Below, one piece after another: positions 18,120 to 44,708 of a DNA stretch of 46,066 nucleotides. The notes below the pieces were generated by a model that was not told where the DNA came from, did no database searches, and saw only the letters and a list, made by a program, of their open reading frames with translations. This DNA is from a virus: IMG/VR virus record IMGVR_UViG_3300030104_007222, positions 1 through 46,066 of that record. One strand, 5' to 3'. Position 1 is the first letter of the stretch. Each line of letters starts with the position of its first letter. The position numbers and the translations under genes are program-made.

Positions 18120-18146
18120 CAAAACTCCTCCTTTCTCAGACAACTT

Positions 18147-18202
18147 ATTGTCCCTCATTTGTACCCAGAAGTAAATTATTTTCTATGCCTTATATATCAA
18201 TG
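18147..18202 (-). promoter_or_regulatory. Early promoter, class 1 copy 3
   Basis: Read on the minus strand: CATTGAT at 18202-18196, then exactly 20 bp, -35 TTTACT (18175-18170), a 17-bp spacer, -10 GACAAT (18152-18147). It leads into the leader CTGAGAAAGGA (18139-18129) and the SleB gene. It aligns without gaps to the copies at 20165 and 28905 from CATTGAT through the -10. The upstream heptamer overlaps the stop codon of the preceding gene. Strong sequence support; activity not shown. Confidence 0.8.
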
Positions 18203-19405
18203 GTCTAGCTTATAGTCTTTTGTGATTGTGCCGAGAGATTTGTCTCCGCGCTTGTGTGCCTTGCGCCAATATCGCTTCCCAGATTTTCTCCGGACGCACC
18301 AATGACCGCGAACCTCGTGAAGTCTTTTTGTTGTTGTGGCTTCTTCGTGTTGGTCAATGTTTACAACTTGTCCGGTCTTTTTTGGCAACTTGAGAGTTAT
18401 GACTCGATACTCGTTGCCCTTGCGAACTTTGCCGTAGCGAACTCTTGTGTGTGGAAATTTCCTTGTTGGCTCGTTAATGAACCAATCGAAGTTCAAGACA
18501 CCGAGCAGACAGATCATGAACCGGGCATCTCCTTCTGCTGATGTCAGAGCCATGCTGCTTGCTCTGGCTAACATCTCTGAGTCGAAGTTTCCATTGTCTG
18601 TGTGGCACCACCAGTGGACTGCGTGTGTTTGGCAAGCTACAATAGAATCAATCAGCTCAAGCATTTTTTCACCAGCCATATTAGCTGTCCACCAGCGAGA
18701 AAGAAGCTGGCGAGAAGCCTCGCGGTTGGCAGACTGGAAGCTCTCAAAGCTGTTGTATCCACTCATGCCTGTGTTGATGAATCCCTCAATCGATTTTTCG
18801 TCATCATCATACAAAAAATCTGCAACACGCCTCCTACTTTCTTCCTCAGAATATGCCCCTGAGAAATTAAGCTCAAAGCCAACTGGGGACATGTAAACTT
18901 TCTCTGCTCCAATTAAAAATGGTTGATTTGCAATCGTCACTTTGTTGTCGAAATTATTATCCCGGAAAGCCATTGTGAACATTGCTCTGTCATCACCTGT
19001 GTTCTCACAAAGATAACCAACACGATCTGATATGTGCTCCATCTCAGTGTCTTCAAGAAAATTGTCAACAGCTGCATTTATTTCTTTCACACGAACTTTC
19101 TCATTCCACTCTACCCAGATGAGATCCGTCGGCAGACGCGCAACTTCTGTCAGCATCTGGTAGACTCGCTCGGCACTGATCTGTGCTGATAGCCGGGCAA
19201 CATATTCTGTCAGCTCATCTTCGAGAACAAACCTTGTTGCTTGGCGCATGTTTTTATAGACAGTGTTTGCTGCCTTGCGAGCATTCGACCTAGGTGCTCT
19301 GAAAATGCTTGGCTGTCCGATCAGCCCACGCTTGGGGCTGGCCAGAGCAGCTATGGTCTCGTCTGCTAGCGAGAAAAGCTCTGAGTCAATGTAGGATGTA
19401 GTCAT
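18197..19405 (-). CDS. Conserved hypothetical protein (large early protein)
   Basis: 402 residues from ATG 19405 (GGAG nine bases upstream); an ATG at 19420 would extend the overlap. The N-terminal half is helical (IYRAP-type Arg/Ala stretch, then TEYVARLSAQISAERVYQMLTEVARLPTDLIWVEW). The C-terminal part ends HEVRGHWCVRRKSGKRYWRKAHKRGDKSLGTITKDY, a basic His/Cys/Trp motif seen in marine phage hypothetical proteins and likely nucleic-acid binding. Three clustered Trp/Cys/His (THAVHWWCHTDNG) could bind metal. No known family could be assigned. Confidence 0.7.
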   Translation of the reverse strand: MTTSYIDSELFSLADETIAALASPKRGLIGQPSIFRAPRSNARKAANTVYKNMRQATRFVLEDELTEYVARLSAQISAERVYQMLTEVARLPTDLIWVEWNEKVRVKEINAAVDNFLEDTEMEHISDRVGYLCENTGDDRAMFTMAFRDNNFDNKVTIANQPFLIGAEKVYMSPVGFELNFSGAYSEEESRRRVADFLYDDDEKSIEGFINTGMSGYNSFESFQSANREASRQLLSRWWTANMAGEKMLELIDSIVACQTHAVHWWCHTDNGNFDSEMLARASSMALTSAEGDARFMICLLGVLNFDWFINEPTRKFPHTRVRYGKVRKGNEYRVITLKLPKKTGQVVNIDQHEEATTTKRLHEVRGHWCVRRKSGKRYWRKAHKRGDKSLGTITKDYKLDH

Positions 19406-19670
19406 TGAGCATCGCTCCATAAACTGAGTTTGTTAAAGCTCTCGGAATTTTGGTAACACTTTTCCAGCCAATTTTTATATCTTTGACTTCGCAGTATTGT
19501 GCGAGCTGGCGACCCCACTCATATGCAATCTGCCAATACTCACCTTTGGTCTCATAGTCGTCACCCCAGACTCCATCTTGATAATCATTGAATCCAAGGA
19601 ACACAGATTCTTGAGTTAAGAATTTTCTTCGTGATGCCGTCCTATAGTTGCTCTTGTCATCGTTCGACAT
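19386..19670 (-). CDS. Hypothetical protein
   Basis: 94 residues with start coupled by TAATG to the preceding stop. It has a basic N-terminus (NYRTASRRKF), then FLGFNDYQDGVWGDDYETKGEYWQIAYEWGRQLAQYC, rich in Tyr, Trp and Asp, and a short C-terminal helix. The gene overlaps the start of the next by 20 bp. No family recognised. Confidence 0.5.
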   Translation of the reverse strand: MSNDDKSNYRTASRRKFLTQESVFLGFNDYQDGVWGDDYETKGEYWQIAYEWGRQLAQYCEVKDIKIGWKSVTKIPRALTNSVYGAMLNDYILH

Positions 19671-19948
19671 TATGCAGCCTCCCGATCAGAGTGGCCGAAG
19701 ATTTTGAGGCACAGGCTGTTGGTTACTTTTGTGTTGGCCTGAATGAACTGTCGGCTAAGTTTCTTGCGGACAGCTTTCATGTCGAGAGTTTTGCGCTCAA
19801 CATCGCTGATGACGATGTAGTGGTCTTCACCCTCGTAGGTCCCGGGACCAGACTCTTTAAGAGCACGAACATACTCAGCCTCGACTTCTTTAAGGTGCGC
19901 GATCTCTGCGCGGACTTTTGCGAGCTTGTTTACACGATGGTCTTTCAT
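19670..19948 (-). CDS. Hypothetical coiled-coil protein
   Basis: 92 residues, started by the leader CTGAGAAAGGA (19965-19955) and ACAA before ATG. The N-terminal helix (LAKVRAEIAHLKEVEAEYVRALKE) forms a coiled coil. It is followed by GTYEGEDHYIVISDVERKTLDMKAVRKKLSRQFIQANTKVTNSLCLKIF. The layout - coil, small beta unit, KxxLSRQFxxxNTK - resembles small phage proteins found next to replication genes, sometimes linked to Gp157-like proteins. Function not known. Confidence 0.6.
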   Translation of the reverse strand: MKDHRVNKLAKVRAEIAHLKEVEAEYVRALKESGPGTYEGEDHYIVISDVERKTLDMKAVRKKLSRQFIQANTKVTNSLCLKIFGHSDREAA

Positions 19949-19954
19949 TTGTTT

Positions 19955-19965
19955 TCCTTTCTCAG
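19955..19965 (-). repeat. Leader motif CTGAGAAAGGA
   Basis: Exact copy just upstream of the 19948 start. It overlaps the last codons and stop of the upstream gene (the TGA is inside the motif), so it serves as a coupled ribosome-binding site. Confidence 0.75.
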
Positions 19966-20138
19966 TTTTCCTGAATCATTTTCAGGATTGCCTTTTTGGT
20001 GCTGGCTGACATAGAGCACCCGGATTTCCGAGCTTGCCAGAATCCTTTTTCTCGCCAAACCTCGAATCCATCAACCACTGTGTAGCCATTGTTTTTCGAT
20101 ATTGCTGTGCGAGCTTTCGTTGCCAGATTTATTTTCAT
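19962..20138 (-). CDS. Small basic protein (58 aa)
   Basis: Starts with ATG at 20136-20138 behind leader CTGAGAAAGGA (20155-20145) and ends in a TGA that is part of the next leader. Sequence begins KINLATKARTAISKNNG, then VVDGFEVWREKGFWQARKSGCSMSAS and a Lys-rich C-terminal helix. Net positive charge and two Trp suggest nucleic-acid or membrane binding. It is the first gene after promoter 20165. Too short for confident assignment. Confidence 0.7.
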   Translation of the reverse strand: MKINLATKARTAISKNNGYTVVDGFEVWREKGFWQARKSGCSMSASTKKAILKMIQEN

Positions 20139-20164
20139 TTGTTTTCCTTTCTCAGTTATGACTT

Positions 20165-20220
20165 ATTATCTCTTATTGCTCCTTAAAAGTAAAGTGTTTT
20201 CTTTCTTAATGAAATCAATG
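20165..20220 (-). promoter_or_regulatory. Early promoter, class 1 copy 2
   Basis: On the minus strand: CATTGAT at 20220-20214, 20 bp, -35 TTTACT (20193-20188), 17-bp spacer, -10 GATAAT (20170-20165), then leader CTGAGAAAGGA at 20155-20145. It lies in the 84-bp gap after the polymerase gene and would drive 20138 down to 18197. It is closest in sequence to copy 28905 (GTAAG-Y-CATTGATTT shared). Confidence 0.85.
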
Positions 20221-20222
20221 AC

Positions 20223-23033
20223 TTACGAGTCACTAAGTTTGCGAATGTTGTCAACGTAGATTTTTCTGAAGCCTTTTTTGACATGACCCTTCACCAGAAA
20301 CCAATCACCATCACGAGATTGTTCAACAATAGGTTTGCCCATCTTGTTATATTTGAACCTGTCTATGGTGCAGATGATTGGCGCTGTGTCATCCTCGAAT
20401 GTTAGGTTGAGCCACAGGTTATTATTCTCAACTCTCCGACCACCACGCTTGGCCAAGTTAACAACCTCATTCATATCGCGCAAATTCTTCTCTGTCAGCT
20501 TGCCGAAGAAAACAAATGTTCCGGGATTGTCTCCATCGAGATCTTGGATGTCTGTAATGTCAGAAACGATGTTGTGCGCTCTCGGATCTTTCTTGATGTG
20601 GCCCCACCTACGTTCACACTCGAATATGTCATCGTATGGAGTGGTGCCATTGTCCAGAAGTTTCTCTTGCCTTGGTGTGAGAGGCTCTGCCATTTTCCTT
20701 CTGCGGATTATGTCCTCCGACATTTTTGGTCCTATTCCCTTGATACCAATCAGCCCACCTATCAGCTCGTTGTCCTGAACAGACCAGTTTTCTAGAGATC
20801 TGAATTTATCAAATGGCTTGTATGACATTCCCTCCCGGACAACTTCTCTCAACAGCTTTACACCTTGTGCATCATCCTTGACATTCCGGAGACACGCTGC
20901 AGCAAACTCCAGAGGAAATTTATACTTAAGAACACAACACCAATAAGACAGCATGCCATAACTAACAGCATGGCTCCTGTTAAAAGCCCAAGACCCCATA
21001 GTATTAATGTGATCCCATATATACCTTGCTTCACTTTCTTCAATATTATTTTCATCCGCACCAGCCTTAAATTTTTCGAAGTAACGGTCAAAGAATTCTT
21101 GGCCAAGAGACTTGCTCATTGCCTTACGCAGTTGCGAGACATCTTCCCAAGACAACTTGCCAACATCCCTGCCAATCTGCATGACCTGTTCCTGATAGAC
21201 AACAACGCCATTGGTTACTTCTGTTATCTCTTTGGTCAGCGGATGAAGGTATTCTGTTGGTGCAGCACCTGTGTGCCTTTTTATATATTCTGTTGTTCCA
21301 CCAGAGTTCAATGGTCCGGGACGAGCGAGTGCGGTGATGGCGGCAATGTCTTCGAAATCATGAACTTTCATCTGGCGCGTGACGGATTGCAATGCATATC
21401 CTTCGAACTGGAATATTCCAGCATACTTTTCATCGTTGAGTATTGCGAATGCCTCTTTGTCGTCCAGTGGGTAATTTATGAGCTGCTCTCTTTCCCACCC
21501 CACCTGATCAAGTGTGTCTTGGAGAATGCTGAGTGTCCTCAGACCAAGGGCATCTATCTTCAGCAAGTTCAAATCTTCGGCATCATACTTGTCTATCTGC
21601 GCAGACCCTCCATAGCTGCTTACTGAGCAGTAGTTGTGAACTGGCTCTTCTGTTACGAGTATCCCTGCTGCGTGGACACCGCTGTGCCTTGCGTGATATT
21701 CCATGTCAGCTGCTATTTTCATTTGTGGATATTTTTCAAGTATCTGCTTGCCAACATCCAATTCATTGAATGTGTCAAGGATGCAGAACGCTGCTCTTGA
21801 GTCTCCACCGCTCCTCTCAATGATTGCACCCTTGAGGTCATTAACCTCCCACATCGGAATTCCAAGCTCTTTGGAAACCTCAGTTATTGTGCTCTTGGCT
21901 TTGTAGCGAGAGACTGTCCCGAGATGCGCAACCTTCTCTGCTCCATACTTGTTGCGCAGATATTCAAAAACCATCTCCCTGCGGTCATCCTGAAAATCAA
22001 TATCGATGTCTGGGAGATCTGCTCTTGTTACATCTATGAACCTCTCGAATAGCAGATTGTGCTTGATCGGATCAACATTTGTTATGCCCAACAGGTAGCA
22101 AACAAGCGACCCAGCTGCGGAGCCTCTTGCTGGTCCAACAAGCATGTGCTGGCGAGCATATTTGACCATGTCTGCGATCACGAAAAAGTAATCTTCAAAT
22201 TCCTTCTCCGCAATCATTTCTATTTCTCTTTTGAGGCGATCATCATAATCTTCCCGCCCGAGATCAACTCCAAGTTCGTTTGCCCCTGCTCTGCAAAGTG
22301 CCTCTAGCGTTTTATTGGTCTTATAGCGCACCATTTGTGCTTGGGGGAGGCTCGCATCACACTGATCAGAGATCGCGTGTGTGTTGGCTATGGCCTCATC
22401 TGGAAGCCATTTTATAACAGACCTAAGCTCCCACTCGCTGAGGATGTGCATGGGTTTGGTTCTCGATTGGCGATTGCGCCCGGTCAGAACTTCATAAACC
22501 TTTTTGTCTGTCACCTTTGGATAAAAGTTATCACTGACAGCAACTGGCTTGAAGCCTCTTCCAATTGCATCCAAGCATCTCTTTGTGCTCATTGGTCCAA
22601 TCTCTATGTAGAGATTTTCCTTGTGAGTTGTTGGCAACATACCCCAGTTTGGATTTGCCCCGGAAAGGATTATCACATCCTCGGATATATCAAAAAGGTC
22701 AGAATAATCAAGGCGAGGAATATAATAAAAATTATCTGTAGATCTGGTAACAAGCTCATAAATCTCTTTCAACCCCCTGTTATTTTTTGCAATAAATGAC
22801 ATGTAGTTGGTTGGCTGTTTCTCCCGCGAGCGAGCATCATCAACAAAAGCGATCTCAACACCATACAATGGCTTCTTGCCAGCCTCCTTACAGGCACGCT
22901 GGAAAGCAGCATGACCCCAAGTGCCGGTGTCGCAAATGCCAACTGCATCCCCCTCCGCTGTGTCAATGACTTTTTTGACTGGTCCATAGGCTGTGCGGAA
23001 AGAGTATTCAGTTCGCAGTTTTATATTAAGCAT
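20223..23033 (-). CDS. DNA polymerase III alpha-type (C-family) replicase
   Basis: 936 residues from ATG 23033, which overlaps the exonuclease stop and has AGGAGGGG upstream. The C-family palm is clear: GPARGSAAGSLVCYLLGITNVDP (300-322) and PDIDIDF (341-347, catalytic Asp342/344), with a third Asp in LLKIDALGLRTL. Helix-hairpin-helix (GLIGIKGIGPKMSEDIIRRR) and a C-terminal OB-like domain (TFVFFGKLTEKNLR, WFLVKGHVKKG) follow. The N-terminal PHP domain is degenerate: KLRTEYSFRTAYG replaces the metal-binding HxHSxYS. Shorter than bacterial DnaE (~1,160). It would copy the phage genome, proofread by the adjacent exonuclease. No clamp gene is present, so the host clamp is probably used. Confidence 0.92.
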   Translation of the reverse strand: MLNIKLRTEYSFRTAYGPVKKVIDTAEGDAVGICDTGTWGHAAFQRACKEAGKKPLYGVEIAFVDDARSREKQPTNYMSFIAKNNRGLKEIYELVTRSTDNFYYIPRLDYSDLFDISEDVIILSGANPNWGMLPTTHKENLYIEIGPMSTKRCLDAIGRGFKPVAVSDNFYPKVTDKKVYEVLTGRNRQSRTKPMHILSEWELRSVIKWLPDEAIANTHAISDQCDASLPQAQMVRYKTNKTLEALCRAGANELGVDLGREDYDDRLKREIEMIAEKEFEDYFFVIADMVKYARQHMLVGPARGSAAGSLVCYLLGITNVDPIKHNLLFERFIDVTRADLPDIDIDFQDDRREMVFEYLRNKYGAEKVAHLGTVSRYKAKSTITEVSKELGIPMWEVNDLKGAIIERSGGDSRAAFCILDTFNELDVGKQILEKYPQMKIAADMEYHARHSGVHAAGILVTEEPVHNYCSVSSYGGSAQIDKYDAEDLNLLKIDALGLRTLSILQDTLDQVGWEREQLINYPLDDKEAFAILNDEKYAGIFQFEGYALQSVTRQMKVHDFEDIAAITALARPGPLNSGGTTEYIKRHTGAAPTEYLHPLTKEITEVTNGVVVYQEQVMQIGRDVGKLSWEDVSQLRKAMSKSLGQEFFDRYFEKFKAGADENNIEESEARYIWDHINTMGSWAFNRSHAVSYGMLSYWCCVLKYKFPLEFAAACLRNVKDDAQGVKLLREVVREGMSYKPFDKFRSLENWSVQDNELIGGLIGIKGIGPKMSEDIIRRRKMAEPLTPRQEKLLDNGTTPYDDIFECERRWGHIKKDPRAHNIVSDITDIQDLDGDNPGTFVFFGKLTEKNLRDMNEVVNLAKRGGRRVENNNLWLNLTFEDDTAPIICTIDRFKYNKMGKPIVEQSRDGDWFLVKGHVKKGFRKIYVDNIRKLSDS

Positions 23034-23565
23034 CCAAATGCCCCTCCTTGCTATACCACTTGACAACTTCTATCAGAGCACGAACGTCTGCGATTGATCG
23101 GTGAGCACCTTTGTGCTCTCGCCCTGTGACCTCAAAATATATGTCGCCCAGCTTGCGCTTTTTGTTCCAAACAGTTTCGCCAACCTCAACTGTGCAGATC
23201 TGATCTGGTGGCCAAGGGAAACTCATTACCTTGGCCAGCCTCTCAAGCTCGAACTTGAGCACAGTTCTGTCAAACGGAAGGTTGTGCGCAACGAGAGTTC
23301 GCTCGCCTAAAAAGAAATCACAAACCTCATCAAGCATTGCAACAAATGGCTTTTTGTTTGCAAGATCCTCATCTGTTATCCCGGTTATTTTTGTGATCTG
23401 TGGGTCGAGTGGTATGCCGGGATTGCACATGAATTCCAGCACACCTATCTCGTTGAGGTCGTCATCCAGCTTGATTGCTCCGAACTCTGTTATCCTAGGC
23501 TGAAGGTCTAAATCTGCACCTTCAGCTTTTGGGAGACCTGTCGTCTCAAGATCAAACACTATCAT
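23026..23565 (-). CDS. DnaQ-like 3'-5' exonuclease (DEDDh)
   Basis: 179 residues. Exo I motif FDLETTG gives Asp5 and Glu7; Exo II AHNLPFDR gives Asp99; Exo III AHRSIADV gives His155 and Asp160. Also FxCNPGIPLDPQITKITGITDEDL, the standard DnaQ second region. It overlaps the start of the polymerase gene by 8 bp and the VOC gene by 14 bp. As a separate epsilon-like subunit it would proofread the phage C-family polymerase. The length matches the catalytic domain only, without the alpha-binding tail of E. coli epsilon. Confidence 0.92.
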   Translation of the reverse strand: MIVFDLETTGLPKAEGADLDLQPRITEFGAIKLDDDLNEIGVLEFMCNPGIPLDPQITKITGITDEDLANKKPFVAMLDEVCDFFLGERTLVAHNLPFDRTVLKFELERLAKVMSFPWPPDQICTVEVGETVWNKKRKLGDIYFEVTGREHKGAHRSIADVRALIEVVKWYSKEGHLDA

Positions 23566-24046
23566 GGTTTATCCTAACGATAAACTTAACATCAACACCC
23601 AATATCTCTTTTGTGTCGAAGATCACATAGTTGTATGTTCGCTTGCCAGCTATGACAGGGTTGGTGTGTGATTCAGTCATCACCTCTTGAGCTACACCAA
23701 TGCCTCTCTCCTCAAAGAACTTTCGCCACTCTAATAATTCCTCAGCAGTGCAGTGCATCCCTAGGTGACTAACAGAGTTGACTTCTCTTGGCCAGTCCTC
23801 CTCTGCCTCCCTGTCACCCATCCAGTTATTTCCAGTGGTGTAGTGCAGAACCTCAAATTCTTTGCCATCAACTAAATCATAGTTGAATGAGAGATCTGCC
23901 TCATTGCGACCGGGTGATCCAAAAACTTCACCCTCTGCCACAACATGATCTTCTGCCCAATCTCCTGCACCCATCTCATCTAGCAGCTTCTTAGCATCTT
24001 CTGGTGACTTGGGGCAGATTGCAATTTGTTCGATTTTGAATTTCAT
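23552..24046 (-). CDS. Glyoxalase/VOC-superfamily protein
   Basis: 164 residues with two beta-alpha-beta-beta-beta halves. The second has NSVSHLGMHCTAEELLEWRKFFEERGIGVAQEVMTESHTNPVIAGKRTYNYVIFDTKEILGVDVKFIVRI, with the usual His (SHLGMH) and a terminal Asp/Glu strand. A first half with IAICPKSPEDAKKLLDEMG and FEVLHYTTG completes the fold. VOC proteins bind a metal in a cup and include glyoxalases, dioxygenases and resistance proteins. The substrate cannot be read. It sits between the SDR and the exonuclease. Confidence 0.7.
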   Translation of the reverse strand: MKFKIEQIAICPKSPEDAKKLLDEMGAGDWAEDHVVAEGEVFGSPGRNEADLSFNYDLVDGKEFEVLHYTTGNNWMGDREAEEDWPREVNSVSHLGMHCTAEELLEWRKFFEERGIGVAQEVMTESHTNPVIAGKRTYNYVIFDTKEILGVDVKFIVRINHDSV

Positions 24047-24048
24047 AA

Positions 24049-24720
24049 TTAAGCTCCATAAGGCAGGACACAGCCTGTCAAAAATTTGTGGTGTTGTTTG
24101 TCTTGAAGAAGGTGCGCTATGAATTCAGCCAGCAGCTCTGGTGGAGTCTCTTCCCCAGTGAGCAAACCATTGAGCTGATACTCTTGAGCATACTCTTTTG
24201 TCCAGCCACGAGTCTCAACAACCTGACGATCGATTGAGTCACTCATCCCTGTCCCTGACATCTTGTTCGGTGCGATCCCGAAAACTGTTATGCCATGTTT
24301 CTTCGTCAGCTCTCTTGCGAGCTGAAGAGTCATGATGTGCGCTGCACCCTTGGATGCATTGTAGGCTAGCGAACAAGTCATTGGCATGTGCGCAGCATTG
24401 CTGACGATGTTGACGATTGTCCCCTTGCTTTTTATCAGCATCGGCAAACAAGCTCTGGACATCATATAAATGCCTTTGGCATTTGTGTCCATCACTTTGT
24501 CCCACTCATCTTCTCCAAAATTTTCAAGCCAATTTATTATATTTACCCCTGCGCAGTTAATCAGGACATCAATTTCATCGATGCCACCCAAATCTGGCTT
24601 GCGAACATCCTTGCCATCTAGCCATTCATACTTGATGACTTCATGACCACCCTCCTGCAGTTCATTTTTCAGAGCCTGACCCAGACCCTTTCCACTGCCT
24701 GTTACCAAAATTTTACTCAT
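24049..24720 (-). CDS. Short-chain dehydrogenase/reductase (SDR)
   Basis: 223 residues. Cofactor motif TGSGKGLG (7-14), NCAG (55-58), catalytic Ser107 (IVSNAA), Tyr120 and Lys124 (AYNASK), and PNKMSGTGMSD after. It is a classic SDR that would use NAD(P)H to reduce or oxidise a hydroxyl/carbonyl. GAGG precedes the ATG, which overlaps the MazG-like gene by 8 bp. The substrate is unknown; it could process a nucleotide, sugar or lipid precursor in the same early operon as ThyX and the VOC protein. Confidence 0.88.
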   Translation of the reverse strand: MSKILVTGSGKGLGQALKNELQEGGHEVIKYEWLDGKDVRKPDLGGIDEIDVLINCAGVNIINWLENFGEDEWDKVMDTNAKGIYMMSRACLPMLIKSKGTIVNIVSNAAHMPMTCSLAYNASKGAAHIMTLQLARELTKKHGITVFGIAPNKMSGTGMSDSIDRQVVETRGWTKEYAQEYQLNGLLTGEETPPELLAEFIAHLLQDKQHHKFLTGCVLPYGA

Positions 24721-25003
24721 CGTTTTTATCCTCCATTAAAGATTCAACCATTGCAGCATAAACAGCAGCGTCATGAATGCTGTCTCTGTGCTCCATCTCA
24801 GTGTTAGCAAATCTGGTCAGCTTAACAATCATAAGCTCGAACAGGTGCCAAGTATTGAATTGCTCTTTGGTGATAAGACTGACGCCATCAGGGAACAGGG
24901 CAGTCATAACAGCTCCAACAGACTTGTAGTTGTCGCCATAGACCTTGTTCCTCTCTCGGAAAGTCTCAGCCATCGAGTCAAGGATCTCATCAGCTTTGGC
25001 CAT
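24713..25003 (-). CDS. MazG-like / DUF1599-type protein
   Basis: 96 residues from ATG 25001-25003; GGAGGG lies 8 bp upstream and earlier ATGs overlap the neighbour without a ribosome site. Sequence MAKADEILDSMAETFRERNKVYGDNYKSVG...FNTWHLFELMIVKLTRFANTEMEHRDSIHDAAVYAAMVESLM has the ExxxK/ExxD pattern of all-alpha NTP pyrophosphatase-type (MazG/DUF1599-like) proteins: Glu and Asp in an HDAAVYAAM helix. A role in dNTP pool cleaning or base modification is plausible. Confidence 0.65.
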   Translation of the reverse strand: MAKADEILDSMAETFRERNKVYGDNYKSVGAVMTALFPDGVSLITKEQFNTWHLFELMIVKLTRFANTEMEHRDSIHDAAVYAAMVESLMEDKNDE

Positions 25004-25241
25004 CTTCTTTGCCCTCCGCATATCCATCTGCTTTGCCATCAGAATATGCCTTCTTTGCAGACTCCTCAAACAGAACAAGCTCTGTTTGCAATTCAGTTGC
25101 AGCTTTCAGCACCTCTTGGTAGCCGTTAGCATTTTCAATGTATTCATAGAGCCTTTGCCGGGTGGTCGCATTGACGTCTAAGATCCTTGCAACTTTTTCG
25201 CCATCGATTTCTATGTCATTGCCAGTCATCCTGATAGTCAT
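24990..25241 (-). CDS. Hypothetical small protein with HTH-like segment
   Basis: 83 residues; GGAG lies 7 bp upstream of the ATG, which overlaps the stop of the phosphatase gene (ATGA). It begins TIRMTGNDIEIDGEKVARILDVNATTRQRLYEYIENA and ends with a Glu/Lys/Gly-rich tail (KKAYSDGKADGYAEGKEDG) that looks disordered. The middle could be a small HTH. No family recognised. Confidence 0.5.
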   Translation of the reverse strand: MTIRMTGNDIEIDGEKVARILDVNATTRQRLYEYIENANGYQEVLKAATELQTELVLFEESAKKAYSDGKADGYAEGKEDGQS

Positions 25242-25672
25242 CAAAAATCTCCTTCTTGAACTTGCAGGCATCTCAGCCCACTTTTTCTCCACATGTCAAC
25301 AACAGATTGCCTGTCATCAAGGACAAACCAAACCTTGCTCTTTTCAATCTCATTGTCGAGTATTTCTTTCTTTACAATGTAGTCTGGTCGGTGATCTTCA
25401 GCATCCCTCATCAGGAGCTTGTCATAATATATGTCGTTTAGACGAAGCCACTCAACAGTCTTATCTTTGAACTTGCTGTCGCGCCCACTAACAAGATAGA
25501 TGTGAGTTTCCTTAGACCTCAGATTGCTCAGGATGTTTGCAATATCATTGTTAACTGTGTCATCGATGCAGCGCTGGTTGAACTCATCCCAGTTTTTCTG
25601 GCTGGCAAATTTTAGCCTGTGATCACAGTTGCATAACGTCCCATCAAGATCACATATTATTATTCTCTCCAT
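25241..25672 (-). CDS. HAD phosphatase, polynucleotide kinase 3'-phosphatase-like
   Basis: 143 residues from ATG 25672, overlapping the ThyX stop (TAATG). HAD motif I is DLDGT (Asp8, Asp10). Further conserved parts are THIYLVSGRDSKFKDKTVEWL (motif II Ser), KKEIL (motif III Lys) and WFVLDDRQSVVDMWRK (motif IV DD). The last two and LLMRDAEDHRPDYIVKKEI match the phosphatase domain of T4 Pnk. It would remove 3'-phosphates from nicked DNA or RNA. The kinase domain is absent, so it is a stand-alone phosphatase. Confidence 0.85.
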   Translation of the reverse strand: MERIIICDLDGTLCNCDHRLKFASQKNWDEFNQRCIDDTVNNDIANILSNLRSKETHIYLVSGRDSKFKDKTVEWLRLNDIYYDKLLMRDAEDHRPDYIVKKEILDNEIEKSKVWFVLDDRQSVVDMWRKSGLRCLQVQEGDF

Positions 25673-26325
25673 TAGCTCTTCCTCGGATTCAGAGCATTGC
25701 CCATAGATGGTGCCGCCCACTCGGTTGGTGTCAAGAATGGCTCTGCCCAAGGATGGACTTTTATAACCTCATCAATCATCATCCTAAACACCTCTTGGTG
25801 CTCTCCTTGTGCTCTTGGACTCAGCCTAGATTTTGCTGTTTCGTGGAGGTTGCGTAGATCGAACTTGGCAACGATGTTGGTATGAATGTTCGTCGGCAAG
25901 ACGCCACGAGCATCTTCTGCAGGGACATACTCTCTTAGGCTCTGGTATGCCTGATTTATCTCTTTCATCGCATCGTCGTATAGCTCTTTAGCTCTAGGCT
26001 CGTCTAGGATGGCTGGTGGTGTGTAGTAGCCGAAGCCTTCCATGTCTACTGTGCGCTGTGATTGTTGAGCGTAGCTTCCCAAACGATTGCGAACAAACTG
26101 GTGTGTGAATGCTCGCGTCACATCTCGAATCTCGAATGTGTAATCAACGAACTCCCAGCTGGACTTGATTGTCTTCAGCATGTAATCAAGCTCCTCCTGC
26201 TTCTTGTCTTCAGGCCAATCTTTTATTTCCTGATATGCATCCTCGACATTTAACAGACGGGTGTTCTTGGTGAACAGGAGCAGATCTTTTGCATCCTGTG
26301 TGTAATTTACTAAATTAACTTTCAT
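25672..26325 (-). CDS. thyX: FAD-dependent thymidylate synthase
   Basis: 217 residues from ATG 26323-26325 with AGGAGAG upstream. The ThyX signature RHRx7S is present as RNRLGSYAQQS (79-89, Asn replaces His80), followed by QRTVDMEGFGYYTPP. The C-terminal DLRNLHETAKSRLSPRAQGEHQEVF contains the conserved RNL..F-type helix with Arg residues for dUMP/FAD binding. It methylates dUMP to dTMP using CH2-THF and FAD/NADPH. Sits with other nucleotide genes; a FAD-binding protein is encoded upstream. Length is typical. Confidence 0.93.
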   Translation of the reverse strand: MKVNLVNYTQDAKDLLLFTKNTRLLNVEDAYQEIKDWPEDKKQEELDYMLKTIKSSWEFVDYTFEIRDVTRAFTHQFVRNRLGSYAQQSQRTVDMEGFGYYTPPAILDEPRAKELYDDAMKEINQAYQSLREYVPAEDARGVLPTNIHTNIVAKFDLRNLHETAKSRLSPRAQGEHQEVFRMMIDEVIKVHPWAEPFLTPTEWAAPSMGNALNPRKS

Positions 26326-26473
26326 CAGCTCTCTCCTTGAAAATTTTGATCGTTGTTGTATAGACATTCTCACCGACTCGGGTGAATGCCTCTTCTGTTG
26401 TCTCATCGCCTTGCTTGCTTGAAAGCACAGCGATGCAAATGGCCATTGCCACAATGATGATATTTTTTATCAT
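26315..26473 (-). CDS. Small membrane peptide (52 aa)
   Basis: ATG at 26471-26473 overlaps the lipoprotein stop (ATGA), and its end overlaps the ThyX start. The N-terminal MIKNIIIVAMAICIAVLSSKQG is a hydrophobic helix (signal or TM); the remainder is a polar helix (DETTEEAFTRVGENVYTTTIKIFKERADES). Tight coupling on both sides supports a real gene. It may work with the lipoprotein upstream. Function unknown. Confidence 0.65.
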   Translation of the reverse strand: MIKNIIIVAMAICIAVLSSKQGDETTEEAFTRVGENVYTTTIKIFKERADES

Positions 26474-26898
26474 GGCTTGATGCTCTTGAATATCTCTGGC
26501 TCTTGAGACATATTGTCCAGTCGATAGGCAAGGAGAATGTAGACATTATAAACACCATCCCGCTCAACAACCTCTATTTCCTCCCTCTTAAAGCCAGAGA
26601 GATTAACATTGTCGATTGTTTCAACAGATGCAATCTCGGAGAGATTTTTACCACCAGCCCCACGATAATACTTTGACCGCCCATTGACGGTTGTAGAGAT
26701 CTGGCTTGCGATTGTCCTTTTGGCACTCAGCTCGGAAACCTCAATCGCAAATTGAAGGTTCCGGTCAGACGCATAGCCTGATGCATAGAGTGAGTTCTTT
26801 TCGTCTGGTGGTTCTGTATACCAGCTTGGTGCCTCGCTCAACTGATTTGTTGAGCATGCCCCAAGCATCAAAGTCAAAAATATAAATTCCTTTCTCAT
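26470..26898 (-). CDS. Lipoprotein, LPP20-like
   Basis: 142 residues from ATG 26898, with AGAAAGGAAA upstream; earlier in-frame ATGs lie in the neighbour. The signal peptide ends in a lipobox, Leu12-Gly13-Ala14-Cys15. The mature part starts SEAPSWYTEPPDEKNSLYASGYASDRNLQFAIEVSELSAKRTIASQI, which closely resembles the start of LPP20-family lipoproteins (PxW...P..Gxx...A...A...A). It would be anchored in the outer or inner membrane. It is an unusual cargo for a phage early operon. Confidence 0.75.
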   Translation of the reverse strand: MRKEFIFLTLMLGACSTNQLSEAPSWYTEPPDEKNSLYASGYASDRNLQFAIEVSELSAKRTIASQISTTVNGRSKYYRGAGGKNLSEIASVETIDNVNLSGFKREEIEVVERDGVYNVYILLAYRLDNMSQEPEIFKSIKP

Positions 26899-26914
26899 TG
26901 CACTCTTTCCTTTC

Positions 26915-27844
26915 TTAAATGCTATTTGAGTGTAGCGATGCGTCATAAGCACTGTCTTGGCTTATAAATTTATCTATGATAGCAATGTCCGGGACAATGT
27001 CATCAAGAAGCAACTGACGCCACGTTGCAAACCTCCCAAGAGAATATATGCCATGTTCCTTGGTAAGATAAAAGATAAATTCTTTACGGAGCCTTTCATC
27101 AATGGGCAGTATCTTGCCATACCTTTGGGTGCTTGATTTAGGCTCTATAATCTTCCTCGCTTTTATACCGAAATCATCCCTGAGTATCGACATCAGGTTT
27201 GGTCCGGGATTTGATGTTGGCTTGACTGCATGCTCTGCTATGACTGTTTTGCCAACTATCGAAACTCTGTAGTGCTCTTGCATTGGATCAGGATAATAAA
27301 TAGTTTGGTAAACATCAACGTCTGGATCTTCCAGCGAACCAACGTGAGTCCATATCTGCTGGCTCCTAAATTCTGCCGCATCTCCCCAGCCAACTATCTT
27401 CATCATGGCTGGCATTGGTATTGTGCTTATGACTGGGGCAGATCCTTTCTTCGGAAGATCATCAGCTGTCAGCTTCCTGTCATATTCTATCTTGCAGTCA
27501 GCAGCCATTGCACCAATCAGATTCAGCGGTGCGATATACCTTGTTGATGGTGACAGATTATTTATTGATCTGCTCTCAACAGCACCAGTGACTTTTTGTG
27601 AATAACTGTTAGCGAAGAAAACATTTGGTTCAGTGTGCATTTTGTTTTCATAGCTGACAGCCTTGCTGACGAAAACTTTTTTAAATGGTATCCCGCAAGA
27701 GTCACCTACGCTCGGTGTCCTGAACCTTAACAATGCAGAGTGATTGTTTGGCAGCTCGCTCTGAGCTTCCCTGACGATTGGCGAGTGTCTCCTTAGAATA
27801 TTTGCCGCCAAGAGACCAGCCATTCCAGCTCCATATATTATCAT
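26915..27844 (-). CDS. FAD/NAD-binding oxidoreductase, UGM/amine oxidase-like
   Basis: 309 residues; a perfect AAGGAGGTGAT lies before ATG. The N-terminal IIYGAGMAGLLAANIL has the Rossmann GxGxxG. The end contains KEHGIYSLGRFATWRQLLLDDIVPDIAIIDKFI, which parallels the N.G...GR...Y..MD motif of UDP-galactopyranose mutase and related flavoenzymes. It lacks a signal peptide. It could oxidise or rearrange a small substrate and is coupled in an operon with ThyX. The substrate is not predictable from sequence. Confidence 0.7.
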   Translation of the reverse strand: MIIYGAGMAGLLAANILRRHSPIVREAQSELPNNHSALLRFRTPSVGDSCGIPFKKVFVSKAVSYENKMHTEPNVFFANSYSQKVTGAVESRSINNLSPSTRYIAPLNLIGAMAADCKIEYDRKLTADDLPKKGSAPVISTIPMPAMMKIVGWGDAAEFRSQQIWTHVGSLEDPDVDVYQTIYYPDPMQEHYRVSIVGKTVIAEHAVKPTSNPGPNLMSILRDDFGIKARKIIEPKSSTQRYGKILPIDERLRKEFIFYLTKEHGIYSLGRFATWRQLLLDDIVPDIAIIDKFISQDSAYDASLHSNSI

Positions 27845-27864
27845 ATCACCTCCTTATAAATTTT

Positions 27865-27896
27865 AGGGCAGGAGCCACTGAACAGGCTCCTGCCCT
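27865..27896 (-). other. Intergenic hairpin (12-bp stem)
   Basis: Perfect inverted repeat, arms AGGGCAGGAGCC and GGCTCCTGCCCT with an 8-nt loop, five bases after the stop of the 27902 gene and upstream of the flavoprotein. It lacks a U-tract on the minus strand, so it is not a canonical terminator. It may reduce read-through or protect the mRNA 3' end. Confidence 0.7.
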
Positions 27897-27901
27897 ATAA
27901 A

Positions 27902-28426
27902 TTATTTTGCGTAAACTTCTGCCCATCCGTGATTGACATCATAAGCGAAGTCAGGACGACGACCGCCCTTTTCAATGAAGTCATCATAGAGCATTGGACC
28001 ATTGTCTTTCAAGACATTCCAAGAGTGCCACGCATTGGTTCCTTCGCGCCTTGGGTTGCTCCCCCCGACAACCTTGACCATCTGGCCTTTAAAAACTCTG
28101 CGTGGTGCAGTGGTCTTTTTCTCCTTCTTTGTCTCGACAACCTCTGCCTCTTCTTCAACTTGAGGTGCTTCTTGGTCAGTTAGCATTTTCCAGACTCGAC
28201 TTTCCGCAGTCGCTCGGTCTCTGAATTTTGAGATCTTGCGCTCTGCATTGATGTTGTAAATGTCGACAAGGAAGCCTGTCGGAAACAGACGGGTATCAGC
28301 CAAGCAATCTTGTTCCTTGACGATTCTGAATCCGTTGCCGGAATTGCGAGCAATTTCAGCTGAGGCGAAAACCTCGACCTTGGGTGCTTCTTTGCCAGTG
28401 CGATATAGTCCATATACTGTAGTCAT
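27902..28426 (-). CDS. Hypothetical protein with winged-helix-like C-terminus
   Basis: 174 residues, preceded by AGAAAGGAAAGCAAA (a variant of the leader). N-terminal ~85 residues carry TTVYGLYRTGKEAPKVEVFASAEIARN. A long acidic/basic linker (VEEEAEVVETKKEKKTTAPRR) separates a C-terminal unit GSNPRREGTNAWHSWNVLKDNGPMLYDDFIEKGGRRPDFAYDVNHGWAEV, which looks like a small winged-helix (a GxxxxxD..GGRR turn). It recurs in marine phages near replication genes. DNA binding is plausible. Confidence 0.65.
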   Translation of the reverse strand: MTTVYGLYRTGKEAPKVEVFASAEIARNSGNGFRIVKEQDCLADTRLFPTGFLVDIYNINAERKISKFRDRATAESRVWKMLTDQEAPQVEEEAEVVETKKEKKTTAPRRVFKGQMVKVVGGSNPRREGTNAWHSWNVLKDNGPMLYDDFIEKGGRRPDFAYDVNHGWAEVYAK

Positions 28427-28474
28427 TTTGCTTTCCTTTCTAAAAGAACGAGACCCCTTGCCTCTACTGCCTCA

Positions 28475-28500
28475 ACCCCAGCAGCCGAACTGTTTGGGGT
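28475..28500 (-). other. Intergenic hairpin between 28524 and 28426 genes
   Basis: Arms ACCCCA and TGGGGT with an inner CAG/CTG pair and a 5-nt loop, in the 97-bp gap between two early genes. No U-tract follows, so terminator activity is unlikely. The rest of the gap shows no other feature besides a leader variant at the right of the 28426 start. Confidence 0.5.
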
Positions 28501-28523
28501 GTTAGCAAATATGATGGGTGGGA

Positions 28524-28727
28524 TTATAGATGGATGAATGCGAATGCCTCTGGATAGTCTTCCTTGGCATCAGCGATCGAATCATAAGTCTCCTGATATC
28601 CGATCTCACCTGTGCCATCACATTCCCCGCAAGGAATGTCGCGAGCACTCGGGTCAATCGGGTTGCGATCCGAAACAACTCCATAACCATCGCAGTCTTC
28701 GCAGTAAACTTTTATCATCATTTCCAT
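28524..28727 (-). CDS. Zinc-binding small protein, DnaJ-finger-like
   Basis: 67 residues from ATG 28727 (leader CTGAGAAAGGA ends 8 bp upstream of the ATG). The two motifs CEDCDGYG and CGECDGTG are CxxCxGxG repeats as in the DnaJ zinc finger, with four Cys to bind one Zn. It ends in an acidic helix (YDSIADAKEDYPEAFAFIHL). Isolated CxxCxGxG proteins may bind protein or nucleic acid. It overlaps no neighbour. Confidence 0.75.
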   Translation of the reverse strand: MEMMIKVYCEDCDGYGVVSDRNPIDPSARDIPCGECDGTGEIGYQETYDSIADAKEDYPEAFAFIHL

Positions 28728-28729
28728 AA

Positions 28730-28876
28730 TCAATTTCCTTTCTCAGTTTTTTCTTGGAAGAACTTCTCGACACGCTTTCGCCAAGCTACGAACTCTGCGA
28801 ACCCATCTACTGTTGGCTGGGCATTTCCCTCGATGCAGAACTCGCTGTACATTTCGATATATTCTTGATCGGTCAT
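28730..28876 (-). CDS. Small hypothetical protein (48 aa)
   Basis: ATG at 28874-28876, immediately after leader CTGAGAAAGGA (28893-28883) and promoter 28905. Sequence: TDQEYIEMYSEFCIEGNAQ, then PTVDGFAEFVAWRKRVEKFFQE. It is an acidic N-half with a Trp-Arg-Lys helix. Its stop overlaps the leader of the next gene. First gene of the operon from promoter 28905. Confidence 0.65.
   Translation of the reverse strand: MTDQEYIEMYSEFCIEGNAQPTVDGFAEFVAWRKRVEKFFQEKTEKGN
28736..28746 (-). repeat. Leader motif CTGAGAAAGGA
   Basis: Exact copy lying inside the 3' end of the 48-aa gene and serving the zinc-finger gene. Other exact copies in the operon are 28883-28893 (downstream of promoter 28905). Confidence 0.75.
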
Positions 28877-28904
28877 TTCATTTCCTTTCTCAGTTGATGT
28901 AGGT

Positions 28905-28960
28905 ATTATCGCACATCGTTACTAGAAAGTAAAGTATTTTCTTTTCGTTATAAATCAATG
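28905..28960 (-). promoter_or_regulatory. Early promoter, class 1 copy 1
   Basis: On the minus strand: CATTGAT at 28960-28954, 20 bp, -35 TTTACT (28933-28928), 17-bp spacer, -10 GATAAT (28910-28905), then ACCTACATCAACTGAGAAAG. The gap after the helicase gene is 90 bp. It would drive the long operon 28876 to 20223. The downstream leader is nearly identical to that of plus-strand promoter 34825. Confidence 0.85.
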
Positions 28961-28966
28961 GCTTAC

Positions 28967-30436
28967 CTACATGTCAAAAAATTTTAGTGTGCGTGGTCGC
29001 ACCAAAAACAGGTTTTTCCTTGCACGTGTTGCTGCCACATACCACACTCTTATCTCCTCATCTGTGGCGCTGGCTTTCCATGACAAGCCACCCATGTCAG
29101 TGACCAATGCAACATTGTCAGCCTCGCCACCTTTGACTTGATGGATGGTGCTGATTGTAATGCGCGGTTCATCACCAAACTTTTCACCATTGTGCAAGCA
29201 TGCCCTGAGATATTCTCTTTCATCTGGTGCTATGTTCCTCAGCATTGTCATCCAGTTGTGCTGCTTTGCATCATTGCCAAATCCAAAATCCTTGAGCGTG
29301 TAACTCTGAAGATCTGGCAACTTAATTTTTGTCGGGATGAATTGAATAAGGTTCTTCGCTTCAGAAACAGAGATGCTCTTGCCCTTGCGCATGCCCTCCC
29401 AAGATATTATTGCACGGGTCTCGCTGGTGTCTGTTGATGAAGCTCCGAACATCTTGTAAGCATAGCCCTGCTGTTGGCATATTTTTTTGAACCGGGTCAA
29501 AAAGAATTTTGATCTGGAAAGCAGCATCCAAGATTCTCCCCCGGAAAGATCAAGCTCCTCCTCGTGCGCAACCCACTCAACATTGCCTCGCTCTTCTCTA
29601 GGATTCCACTCTTTGTCATAACGAGTTTTTATTCGTGAGCAGATCGACTTCGAAAAATTGTGAATGGATGATGGAGTTCTGTAGCTCTGCGGTAGGACAA
29701 TCCGGTTGCCTTTAAGCGAGAGGAACTTTCTTATGTCAGCACCAGCCCAGCCAAATATCGCCTGATCATCATCGCCAGCGATGTAAATTTTTGATGCTGC
29801 CTTGGAAAGATTTATTGCCATTTTGTATTGAAGAGAAGAAAGATCTTGAGCCTCATCAAAAATGCAGATGTCAACATCCAACTCTGTATCATACCTCTCG
29901 AGCATGTCGGTGAAATCAAGCAGACCATTCTCACGTTTGTATCTTTTGCTAACTTCTGCGAACTGTTGACATGCATGAAGTGTGAGGTCTGGTTCATTAG
30001 ATATTGCATACTGCTGCTCAATAGAACACATCCTCACTCGACTCAATGCCTCGACTCTTGCACACTTATCTCCAAGCCCATCGCCAATCGGCATGTGGAC
30101 AGCATCATCATAAACACCTCGGAACTCAACACCAAGAGTTCTTCCGAGTTTGCGCAGGTGGCTCTCGGTCATAACCTCATCGCGCTGAATGCCAAGCTGG
30201 CGAAACGCAAGTGAGTGAAGTGTCCGGAAGAATGGCAACCTGTTTTCGTCAATGCCGAATCTTGCCATGGCTCGCTCTTGAGCTTCGTATGCAGCCTTGC
30301 GAGTGAAGGCAAGATAAGCAATGCGCTCTGGAGGTGTGCCAGACTCAATCGCCTCATCAACAATGTTGAGGAGTGTTGTTGTCTTGCCTGTCCCCGGTGG
30401 TCCGAGGATTATGTTAACGCGAGATTGTGTTTCCAC
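28967..30436 (-). CDS. SF1 DNA helicase, UvrD/PcrA-like
   Basis: 489 residues; start is GTG 30436 with AAAAGG upstream, overlapping the previous gene by 23 bp. Motifs: Walker A GPPGTGKT (12-19), motif Ia AFTRKAA, DEAQD at 194-198, GDDDQAIFGWAGAD (motif III/IIIa), LPQSYRTP, TISTIHQVKGGEADNV (motif V), and YVAATRARKNLFLV (motif VI). It is a compact helicase with short 1B/2B. It would unwind DNA at the phage fork or in recombination. No DnaB-type ring helicase is present in the window. Confidence 0.92.
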   Translation of the reverse strand: METQSRVNIILGPPGTGKTTTLLNIVDEAIESGTPPERIAYLAFTRKAAYEAQERAMARFGIDENRLPFFRTLHSLAFRQLGIQRDEVMTESHLRKLGRTLGVEFRGVYDDAVHMPIGDGLGDKCARVEALSRVRMCSIEQQYAISNEPDLTLHACQQFAEVSKRYKRENGLLDFTDMLERYDTELDVDICIFDEAQDLSSLQYKMAINLSKAASKIYIAGDDDQAIFGWAGADIRKFLSLKGNRIVLPQSYRTPSSIHNFSKSICSRIKTRYDKEWNPREERGNVEWVAHEEELDLSGGESWMLLSRSKFFLTRFKKICQQQGYAYKMFGASSTDTSETRAIISWEGMRKGKSISVSEAKNLIQFIPTKIKLPDLQSYTLKDFGFGNDAKQHNWMTMLRNIAPDEREYLRACLHNGEKFGDEPRITISTIHQVKGGEADNVALVTDMGGLSWKASATDEEIRVWYVAATRARKNLFLVRPRTLKFFDM

Positions 30437-34580: not shown

Positions 34581-34609
34581 AGTATGAAGCATCATGACAG
34601 CAAAGTCAA
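34581..34609 (-). promoter_or_regulatory. Early promoter, class 2, minus strand
   Basis: On the minus strand: -35 TTGACT (34609-34604), 17-bp spacer, -10 CATACT (34586-34581). Then CACGACCCTGCTGAGAAAGGA and the 34552 gene. The context CTTGACTTTG is identical to promoter 34825. The -10 is weaker. It would drive 34552 down to 28967. Confidence 0.6.
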
Positions 34610-34717: not shown

Positions 34718-34818
34718 GGCATCGGGCATCGCATCGTTGTTTTATTCAACAATATCAATAGGTTAAAGGCGATGCCAGACTCAAAATTGTGCGGAAAAAA
34801 GTGCCGGACACTGGCATC
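34718..34818. repeat. Nested inverted repeats in the divergent control region
   Basis: Two tandem GGCATCG units (34718-34731) face CGATGCC (34770-34776), and GATGCCAG (34771-34778) pairs with CTGGCATC (34811-34818) 32 bp further on. The second repeat touches the -35 of promoter 34825. The left side is A-rich (34680-34712). This could be an operator set or a replication origin. Confidence 0.6.
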
Positions 34819-34824
34819 TTTCGC

Positions 34825-34853
34825 TTGACTTTGTCCTAATTACGAGAGAGAAT
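34825..34853 (+). promoter_or_regulatory. Early promoter, class 2, plus strand
   Basis: -35 TTGACT (34825-34830), 17-bp spacer, -10 GAGAAT (34848-34853), then ACCTTCATTAACTGAGAAAG; the leader motif is at 34865-34875 and ATG at 34877. The downstream segment matches that of promoter 28905 at most positions. It would drive 34877 to 35967, closed by the terminator at 36042. Confidence 0.7.
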
Positions 34854-36138: not shown

Positions 36139-36747
36139 TTGTCAGAGACAGCGAAAAAGAAACGTGGTAGACCGCGCAAGAAGCCAGAGCCAAAAGTTCA
36201 GGTTCAGAGGCCTGTTGATGATAGCCCACACAACTCTCATTTGAAGTGGGATGGCAAAGTTAGTGAAGATGTAAACTTTGATGGAAGGTTTAGTTCTGTC
36301 GAGCCTCTGAAGACACAGCAACCCGGTCGCAAAAAACCATACAAATGGAACCACAGAGCTTTGCAGAACTGGATCATGGGTCAAGCAGATCCTGCTGGGT
36401 TCCTTTCATCTGTCATGCTCGGCAAAGAGATTTTCCCTGTTTATGCACAGGACGAGGAAGGCAATTTGAAACACGTTGGAAAAATTGCTGCAGACCCTGA
36501 GTTAAGAATATCAGCTGCCAAAACTTTGTTGGCCAAATGCGTTCCTGATCTGAAGGCAGTTGAGATCAATCAAACGATTGAAGAACGCAAGGTCATCGAC
36601 ATCAGTGCATTGAGTGATAATGACCTCACCACAATTGAACGAGTTCTTGAACACGCTGTCATTGACGGAGATCCGGGCGGAGAAGATGCGGAGATCCTTG
36701 AAGCAGTTCATCCTGAACTCTTGGCAAGTAATAGAGCCGGGACGTAA
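36139..36747 (+). CDS. Putative terminase small subunit
   Basis: 202 residues; start TTG 36139 with GAGAGA upstream. The N-terminus has an AT-hook-like basic cluster (KKKRGRPRKKPEPK) for binding AT-rich DNA. The middle (NHRALQNWIMGQADPAGFLSSVMLGKEIFPVYAQDEEGNLKHVGKIAADPELRISAAKTLLAKCVPDLKAVE) is helical and ends LKAVEINQTIE, as in many small-terminase-like proteins, with an acidic C-terminus. It overlaps TerL by 62 bp. Position before TerL is the main support. Confidence 0.65.
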   Translation: MSETAKKKRGRPRKKPEPKVQVQRPVDDSPHNSHLKWDGKVSEDVNFDGRFSSVEPLKTQQPGRKKPYKWNHRALQNWIMGQADPAGFLSSVMLGKEIFPVYAQDEEGNLKHVGKIAADPELRISAAKTLLAKCVPDLKAVEINQTIEERKVIDISALSDNDLTTIERVLEHAVIDGDPGGEDAEILEAVHPELLASNRAGT

Positions 36748-42522: not shown

Positions 42523-42714
42523 ATGGCTAGAGCTAAAATAAAAAAGGTTGCTGCCGCAGAGATCCGCGCTGCCAAGAAGTTTCTTGAGCGTCGTGGTCTT
42601 AAGAGCACAGAGCTTTCACCACGCAAGTTTGCTCAGGCAGCAAAGGAGCTTGACGAGTCGTTCAACGACACACTCGTTATCTTGGCTCGTGAGATTGAAG
42701 GTGGGCAAGGCTAG
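42523..42714 (+). CDS. Small helical protein (63 aa)
   Basis: Starts directly after the previous stop. ARAKIKKVAAAEIRAAKKFLERRGLKSTELSPRKFAQAAKELDESFNDTLVILAREIEGGQG: mostly helical, less basic than its neighbours. It stops in the first base of the tagged-cassette array. Function unknown. Confidence 0.65.
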   Translation: MARAKIKKVAAAEIRAAKKFLERRGLKSTELSPRKFAQAAKELDESFNDTLVILAREIEGGQG

Positions 42715-42764
42715 TGGCTGGTAAAGGCAAAATAGTCCGTGGGGCATTGGAAGGCTTGACAGAT
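42714..42764 (+). repeat. Tag repeat 1 (about 50 bp, coding for MAGKGKI...)
   Basis: DNA-level repeat with 43939, 44658 and 45107; differences are mostly third-base. It encodes the tag and the first helix of each product. Confidence 0.8.
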
Positions 42765-43214
42765 GTCTTCACAAAAGGTGATGATGCTCCTGTTGATGAA
42801 AGCAGAAGAACTTTCATGAAGGGAGCAGGTACAGTAGGTGCATTAGGTGCCTTGGGTGGAATTAAAGCTGGAGCGAAACTGATTGATAATATCCCAGCAC
42901 CTGTTAAGAAAGAGGCTGTCACACAAGTTGAAAATCTCTTTTCAACTAAAAGTTGGGATTCTCTCTTTGACAACTTAGCCGAACAATATGAAAATGATTT
43001 CGGGTCTGAACTTTTATATGATGAACTAGAAAATTTCCTTTTCTCGGGAAATTCTGGTCGGGCTTTGAAAGATTTTATATCTGGCAAAATAGATATTGAT
43101 GATCTTGATGATGTTAATGATAATCTTCCTATTTTGATCCGGGATCTCCGGGATGAGGGATTCGATGACCAGCAAGTAAAAAAACTTTTGTCTCAAGAGA
43201 TAAATATTGACTGA
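42714..43214 (+). CDS. MAGKGKI-tagged protein 1, twin-arginine-like segment
   Basis: 166 residues, GTG start overlapping the previous stop. N-terminal tag MAGKGKIVRGALEGLTD is followed by SRRTFMKGAGTVGALGALGG (30-49), a perfect SRRxFxK twin-arginine motif with hydrophobic core, unusually placed internally. The body (60-166) is helical and acidic with NLAEQYENDFGSELLYDELENFLF. The same tag opens the next four genes. It could be a virion-packaged protein delivered to the host. Export by Tat in the host is an inference. Confidence 0.7.
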   Translation: MAGKGKIVRGALEGLTDVFTKGDDAPVDESRRTFMKGAGTVGALGALGGIKAGAKLIDNIPAPVKKEAVTQVENLFSTKSWDSLFDNLAEQYENDFGSELLYDELENFLFSGNSGRALKDFISGKIDIDDLDDVNDNLPILIRDLRDEGFDDQQVKKLLSQEINID

Positions 43215-43939: not shown

Positions 43940-43989
43940 TGGCTGGCAAGGGCAAAATAGTCCGTGGAGCATTGGAGGCATTGACAGAT
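43939..43989 (+). repeat. Tag repeat 3
   Basis: Second best match of the tag DNA; nearly the same as the 42714 copy over 50 bp. Confidence 0.8.
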
Positions 43990-44658: not shown

Positions 44659-44708
44659 TGGCTGGCAAAGGCAAAATAATTCGTGGGGCATTGGAAGGCA
44701 TAATAGAT
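44658..44708 (+). repeat. Tag repeat 4
   Basis: Copy of the tag DNA with more third-base changes and ATT/ATA replacing two codons after KIIRGALEG. Confidence 0.75.

Follow-up and report, generated by a model that had tools for sequence, protein, structure and literature searches.

What acts at a seven-base sequence that lies at a constant distance upstream of three promoters in a single virus genome? The question is raised by a 46-kb virus contig (IMG/VR record IMGVR_UViG_3300030104_007222, positions 1 to 46,066; hereafter ‘the window’), in which replication genes run leftward and structural genes rightward. A preliminary description had picked out the pattern CATTGAT-N20-TTTACT-N17-GAYAAT on the minus strand and proposed that its heptamer is an activator site or an alternative RNA polymerase contact. 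The reading favoured here, with a probability of roughly 60%, is that these would be host sigma-70 promoters assisted by host integration host factor (IHF) at an upstream unit of which the heptamer forms part.

Three copies of one promoter

The pattern is exact on the minus strand at 18147-18202, 20165-20220 and 28905-28960, and just these three are found in the 46,066 bases even with three mismatches allowed, a tolerance at which shuffled sequence gives 0.03 matches on average; a scan of the whole record, as had been proposed, gave no further match. The copies do follow three different genes, encoding a 407-aa open reading frame (ORF), Pol III alpha and the UvrD helicase. Their ungapped alignment, originally put at about 56 bp, is real but was drawn too short, since likeness reaches upstream of the heptamer (TA[AG]nnCATTGAT) and downstream to an extended Shine-Dalgarno sequence, (C)TGAGAAAGGA, after all three -10 boxes. 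Over this span, from TAA/TAG to the Shine-Dalgarno, 38/83 columns are identical, compared with a mean of 5.3 for random triples (maximum 24) and of 8.6 for self-shuffles (maximum 21). All three copies have -35 and -10 hexamers of sigma-70 type at 17-bp spacing (TTTACT-N17-GAYAAT), conserved in relatives, and there is little doubt that the three segments are real promoters.

Dozens of related phages keep the arrangement at matching boundaries between genes. Sixty-seven loci encode the Pol III alpha polymerase; relatives whose polymerase is about 71-93% identical mostly carry the cassette directly after the polymerase gene, and the cassette also follows UvrD and flanks the cell-wall hydrolase in relatives. 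The preliminary description had made its proposal depend on conservation of the heptamer in relatives with the same operon layout; there the cassette stands at the same boundaries, and the proposal is not refuted on that count. Its further suggestion that the three operons form a regulon was a sound inference, as this is one promoter family with a common upstream motif at orthologous boundaries. The cassette is absent at these boundaries in L043 and partly so in L040/L078, where other promoters occur, some just downstream of a hairpin that resembles a terminator and has a T run. The cassette is missing from the Vibrio and Cronobacter relatives, and Roseobacter phages CRP-901/902 have no promoter of this type.

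Such likeness could in principle stem from copying rather than regulatory selection, were the copies a cassette spread by recombination, comparable to the promoter early stem-loop cassettes (PeSLs) of T4-type phages: their positions fall exactly between genes, and leader hairpins or terminators just upstream occur in some relatives. However, the same few boundaries are held over large divergence, conserved columns are limited to promoter, core and Shine-Dalgarno, and the stable leader stem-loops listed include none of the copy 1-3 type of the window, all of which makes this origin very improbable. In about 20 relatives a strong leader hairpin was seen at the expected 5′ end of the transcript, between -10 and Shine-Dalgarno (for example L024:4615, L085:11580, L008 minus 2195 and L088:2623), with stems that differ among relatives (for example GTTGGCG/CGCCAAC and GTTAGC/GCTAAC).

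An IHF-type unit upstream of the -35 box

The heptamer forms the central part of a longer conserved unit, TAAgnCATTGATW, beyond which, at a fixed distance, comes a tract rich in A (in some cases in T). The upstream motif behaves like a protein-binding site, and what is conserved is a 13-bp core plus the A/T tract; that this unit binds a protein is highly probable. Read on the opposite strand, the core YAANNNNTTGATW gives the IHF consensus WATCAANNNNTTR (quoted in, for example, PMC3281130), and the match, exact in copies 2 and 3 and with one mismatch in copy 1, suggests that IHF is probably the protein concerned.

For a column profile, promoters were gathered by -35, -10 and Shine-Dalgarno only and filtered for redundancy. 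The upstream columns read T-A-A, four weaker positions, T-T-G-A-T, W and an A-rich tract, with peaks at AA and TTG, and 22/30 non-redundant promoter-anchored cassettes had the IHF core with ≤1 mismatch at one fixed offset, a count equalled by 0/2000 shuffled motifs. Because some loci had been fetched with patterns containing TTGAT, the count was repeated on loci found by homology or promoter alone, among which 30/45 promoters showed ≤1 mismatch to the IHF core (shuffled motifs: mean 5.0, maximum 21; shuffled sequences: mean 4.9, maximum 12). Among 73 promoters the unit was forward in 46 and reverse in 6, a strong preference for one orientation. The possibility that YAA is a mere stop codon of the upstream gene was rejected, this being true in just 14/41 callable cases; YAA is therefore conserved for itself rather than as a coding by-product. 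The A/T-rich tract lies on the WATCAA side of the core (AT 0.78 in an 18-base stretch in copies 2 and 3), and relatives have an A- or T-rich tract at a fixed distance from the core (T-rich in L058, L212 and L219). Exact matches to the IHF consensus number four in 46 kb, two of them at copies 2 and 3 and a third between the divergent promoters described below; that 3/4 fall in regulatory gaps has a chance of 6e-6, an estimate made post hoc as regards the first two.

Other known motifs fared less well. None of some 20 further consensus sequences, typed from general knowledge, matches as IHF does relative to length; the CtrA site TTAA-N6/7-TTAA was present in 1/73 promoters and was rejected, as was a 17–19-bp repressor operator with dyad AAAGAAAA-N3-TTTTCTTT over the -35, whose complementarity came from composition without covariation (z 1.3). 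The heptamer as half of an FNR/CRP-family box, TTGATNNNNATCAA, which would imply oxygen or metabolic control, draws on the identity of TTGAT with an FNR half-site and on a perfect TTGATATACATCAA in relatives L019-L022, yet the second half is absent in nearly all members (3-5 of 5 mismatches in most) and the conserved YAA is left unexplained, so that this identification is scarcely credible.

The three copies, all on the minus strand, share this anatomy. In copy 1 the core TAGACCATTGATA (18195-18207, IHF-type with one mismatch to YAANNNNTTGATW), also present at an equal or comparable position in L011 and L012, is followed by the tract atagaaaataa (18176-18186), at a distance from TTGAT that is fixed in relatives, -35 TTTACT (18170-18175), -10 GACAAT (18147-18152) and the extended Shine-Dalgarno AGAAAGGA (18129-18136) preceding the cell-wall hydrolase gene; the heptamer here includes the TGA stop of the upstream 407-aa gene. 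Copy 2 has core TAAGTCATTGATT (20213-20225; exact IHF consensus on the plus strand, AATCAATGACTTA), whose TAA is the Pol III alpha stop codon, A-rich tract (20197-20207), -35 TTTACT (20188-20193), -10 GATAAT (20165-20170) and Shine-Dalgarno (20145-20152), then ATG 20138 of a 58-aa ORF (19962-20138). Copy 3 has core TAAGCCATTGATT (28953-28965; exact on the plus strand, AATCAATGGCTTA), whose TAA is not a stop codon (that of UvrD is TAG, 28967-28969), tract (28935-28946), -35 TTTACT (28928-28933), -10 GATAAT (28905-28910) and Shine-Dalgarno (28883-28890), then ATG 28876 of a 48-aa ORF (28730-28876). A 16S tail with the alphaproteobacterial ending CCUCCUUUCU would be complementary to AGAAAGGA. The Shine-Dalgarno leader recurs, in the form (A)ACTSAGAAAGGA, at 19967, 28748 and 35099, before downstream genes without such a promoter. 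As called mechanically, the hydrolase ORF (a Pfam Hydrolase_2 match) begins at ATG 18158, inside the promoter spacer; its true start is more likely a TTG downstream of the Shine-Dalgarno, at 18122 or 18119, and from there the N-terminus resembles a signal peptide.

The distance of exactly 20 bp between heptamer and -35, thought to be fixed, holds in the sub-group to which the window belongs and not beyond it. Among cassettes with the core at ≤1 mismatch, the core lay 20 bp from the -35 in 23 cases, 28-29 bp in 7, 32-33 bp in 3, 39-40 bp in 7 and 45-46 bp in 2 weak cases, and 20, 29, 32-33 and 39-40 bp are all represented at one and the same boundary, that following Pol III alpha. Whatever the distance to the -35, the A/T tract holds its distance to TTGAT; core and tract therefore shift together as one unit with respect to the promoter, and this speaks against a plain UP element. 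The tract of the 20-bp class does lie at about -46 to -38, the position of the proximal UP subsite, so that it might serve the polymerase alpha subunit, with the heptamer as an extension; this is improbable, however, as the tract follows TTGAT rather than the -35 in the 28-40 bp classes, the UP consensus fits poorly, and the invariant AA (-29/-30) and TTG (-22 to -24 from the anchor) go unexplained. Steps near 10 bp suggest that the unit may be in helical phase with the promoter: 20, 28-29 and 39-40 bp fit whole turns and 32-33 and 45-46 bp fit poorly, with few independent spacing classes.

Several points weigh against IHF assistance. The 32-33 bp distances match 10-bp steps poorly; L043 lacks the motif although its promoters stand at the same places, so that the motif is dispensable; copy 1 departs from the IHF core at one base; the N4 within the core, though weaker, prefers GTCA, more than IHF alone would need; the identification was made after the motif had been seen; and the alphaproteobacterial host of the phage is itself only a likelihood. 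The constraint on N4 would suit a site for a phage-encoded or unnamed host activator, perhaps in partnership with IHF, on the pattern of GafY in Caulobacter, and controlling a dedicated middle-gene regulon. It would be in keeping with such an activator that strong promoters lack the motif and weak ones have it, that no function is known for many of the window proteins, and that IHF needs a co-activator at Caulobacter gene transfer agent promoters (PMC11150451). Against it, the strongest columns are those of IHF, the tract is apparently kept as A/T rather than as sequence, and no candidate regulator was recognised in the window, where a six-frame search found no HU/IHF or sigma-factor domain; a dedicated activator is accordingly rather unlikely. 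Its most specific form, a phage-encoded co-activator working with IHF at the TAAGTCATTGATA unit in a bend-dependent, helix-phased middle-gene regulon with fixed boundaries, in a lytic phage lineage that has neither a polymerase nor a sigma factor of its own, is more doubtful still. IHF assistance is thus retained. What survives of the original alternatives, an activator site or a polymerase contact, is an upstream regulator site that fits a general host protein better, and of the phage- or host-encoded activator it is the host member, IHF, that fits.

Genome context and the divergent control region

The leftward genes encode Pol III alpha, exonuclease, ThyX, polynucleotide kinase, UvrD helicase, AEP-type primase, cell-wall hydrolase and a helicase; PHROG matches of the ORFs scanned include no RNA polymerase. 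The Pol III-type replication module (20223-23066) resembles that of Vibrio/Cronobacter podophages, and Pol III alpha is ≤44% identical to that of named phages of these hosts; the terminase (36614-38128) is 72% identical to that of Roseobacter phages CRP-901/902, whose replication module is unrelated. Replication and packaging genes therefore point to different relatives and the genome, judged by sequence comparison, is a mosaic. The phage, which is uncultivated, is probably marine, its host is likely a marine alphaproteobacterium, and its lineage is apparently lytic. A Pol III alpha query against genome contigs, made as a host search, found no relative, and the cassette pattern gave three matches in metagenome-assembled genomes that were taken as chance. 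Against named phages, megablast of the first 23 kb gave no match and blastn of the cassette gave chance matches only.

Two related promoters, both without the upstream core, face away from each other at 34.6-34.85 kb: TTGACT-N17-GAGAAT followed by AACTGAGAAAGGA (34825-34853, plus strand) and TTGACT-N17-CATACT followed by CTGAGAAAGGA (34581-34609, minus strand), the latter at the start of the leftward replication operon. They share with the three copies the design TTKACT-N17-nAnAnT plus CTGAGAAAGGA but have no heptamer. Between them lies the third exact IHF-consensus match, TATCAATAGGTTA (34753-34765, plus strand), and a similar motif is present in L081 and L141. In CRP-901 (L236), TAACGCCTTGATATCGTTGAACAAAACAGC at 1824-1855 on the plus strand resembles this site and its flank (TAACCTATTGATATTGTTGAATAAAACAAC, minus strand), and CRP-901 and the window may possibly have an early control region in common. 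Elsewhere, a 62-bp gene-start sequence (ATGGCTGGCAAGGGCAAAATAGTCCGTGG...) recurs 4-5 times at the starts of consecutive ORFs on the plus strand (42705-45160), which suggests tandemly duplicated genes.

A proposed mechanism and its known counterparts

The three segments would act as sigma-70-type promoters for host RNA polymerase at gene boundaries within the extended leftward replication/lysis operon. Host IHF would bind some 20 bp upstream of the -35 in each, at the core, YAANNNNTTGATW (WATCAANNNNTTR on the other strand), together with the promoter-side A/T-rich tract, and bend the DNA sharply; the bend could let upstream DNA or the alpha-subunit domain touch the polymerase and so aid a weak -35 (TTTACT). 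The divergent TTGACT promoters, presumed stronger, lack a close site, the IHF match between them being common to both. Promoter activity, IHF binding and activation in preference to repression are here inferred from sequence, the last because the -35 boxes are weak. The phage thus probably borrows host IHF to switch on transcription of the genes for replication and lysis.

If true, this would give the host a part in timing: apparently lytic phages with no recognised polymerase or sigma factor must use host machinery, and an IHF-type cassette across a large uncultivated phage family would be a simple, testable account of gene timing in the lineage. The cassette could also serve as a signature for locating the promoters of this lineage. 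IHF level varies with growth phase in studied bacteria, and dependence on IHF would couple infection to its level in the host.

The window copies would be new examples of a promoter kind already known, with no special activator required. At IS5-activated glpFK in E. coli, IHF with A-tracts activates, and a shift of 10 bp is tolerated where one of 5 bp is not (PMC2753651); both systems place an IHF(-type) site and A-tracts upstream of a sigma-70 promoter, IHF binding being predicted here, but the glpFK site lies ~215 bp upstream within an insertion sequence, whereas that of the window lies next to the -35 as an integral part of phage promoters. At the Mu early promoter Pe, host IHF supports transcription from an upstream site (PMC3820752 and references in it). 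The likeness is a phage promoter for host RNA polymerase with host IHF (here predicted) upstream, although Pe is a single promoter of a temperate phage within an operator/enhancer architecture, rather than a cassette repeated at several operon boundaries. The Caulobacter gene transfer agent, from an alphaproteobacterium, also has IHF (again predicted here) at promoters of phage-like genes, the promoters of this cluster needing IHF with GafY/GafZ (PMC11150451), whereas no such co-activator was recognised in the window. The PeSLs of T4-type phages (PMC4503421 and its references) are likewise repeated intergenic promoter cassettes, and some relatives of the window resemble them further in having a hairpin or an upstream terminator; the window copies differ from the PeSLs in having no hairpin, in carrying an IHF-type core and in occupying fixed operon positions.

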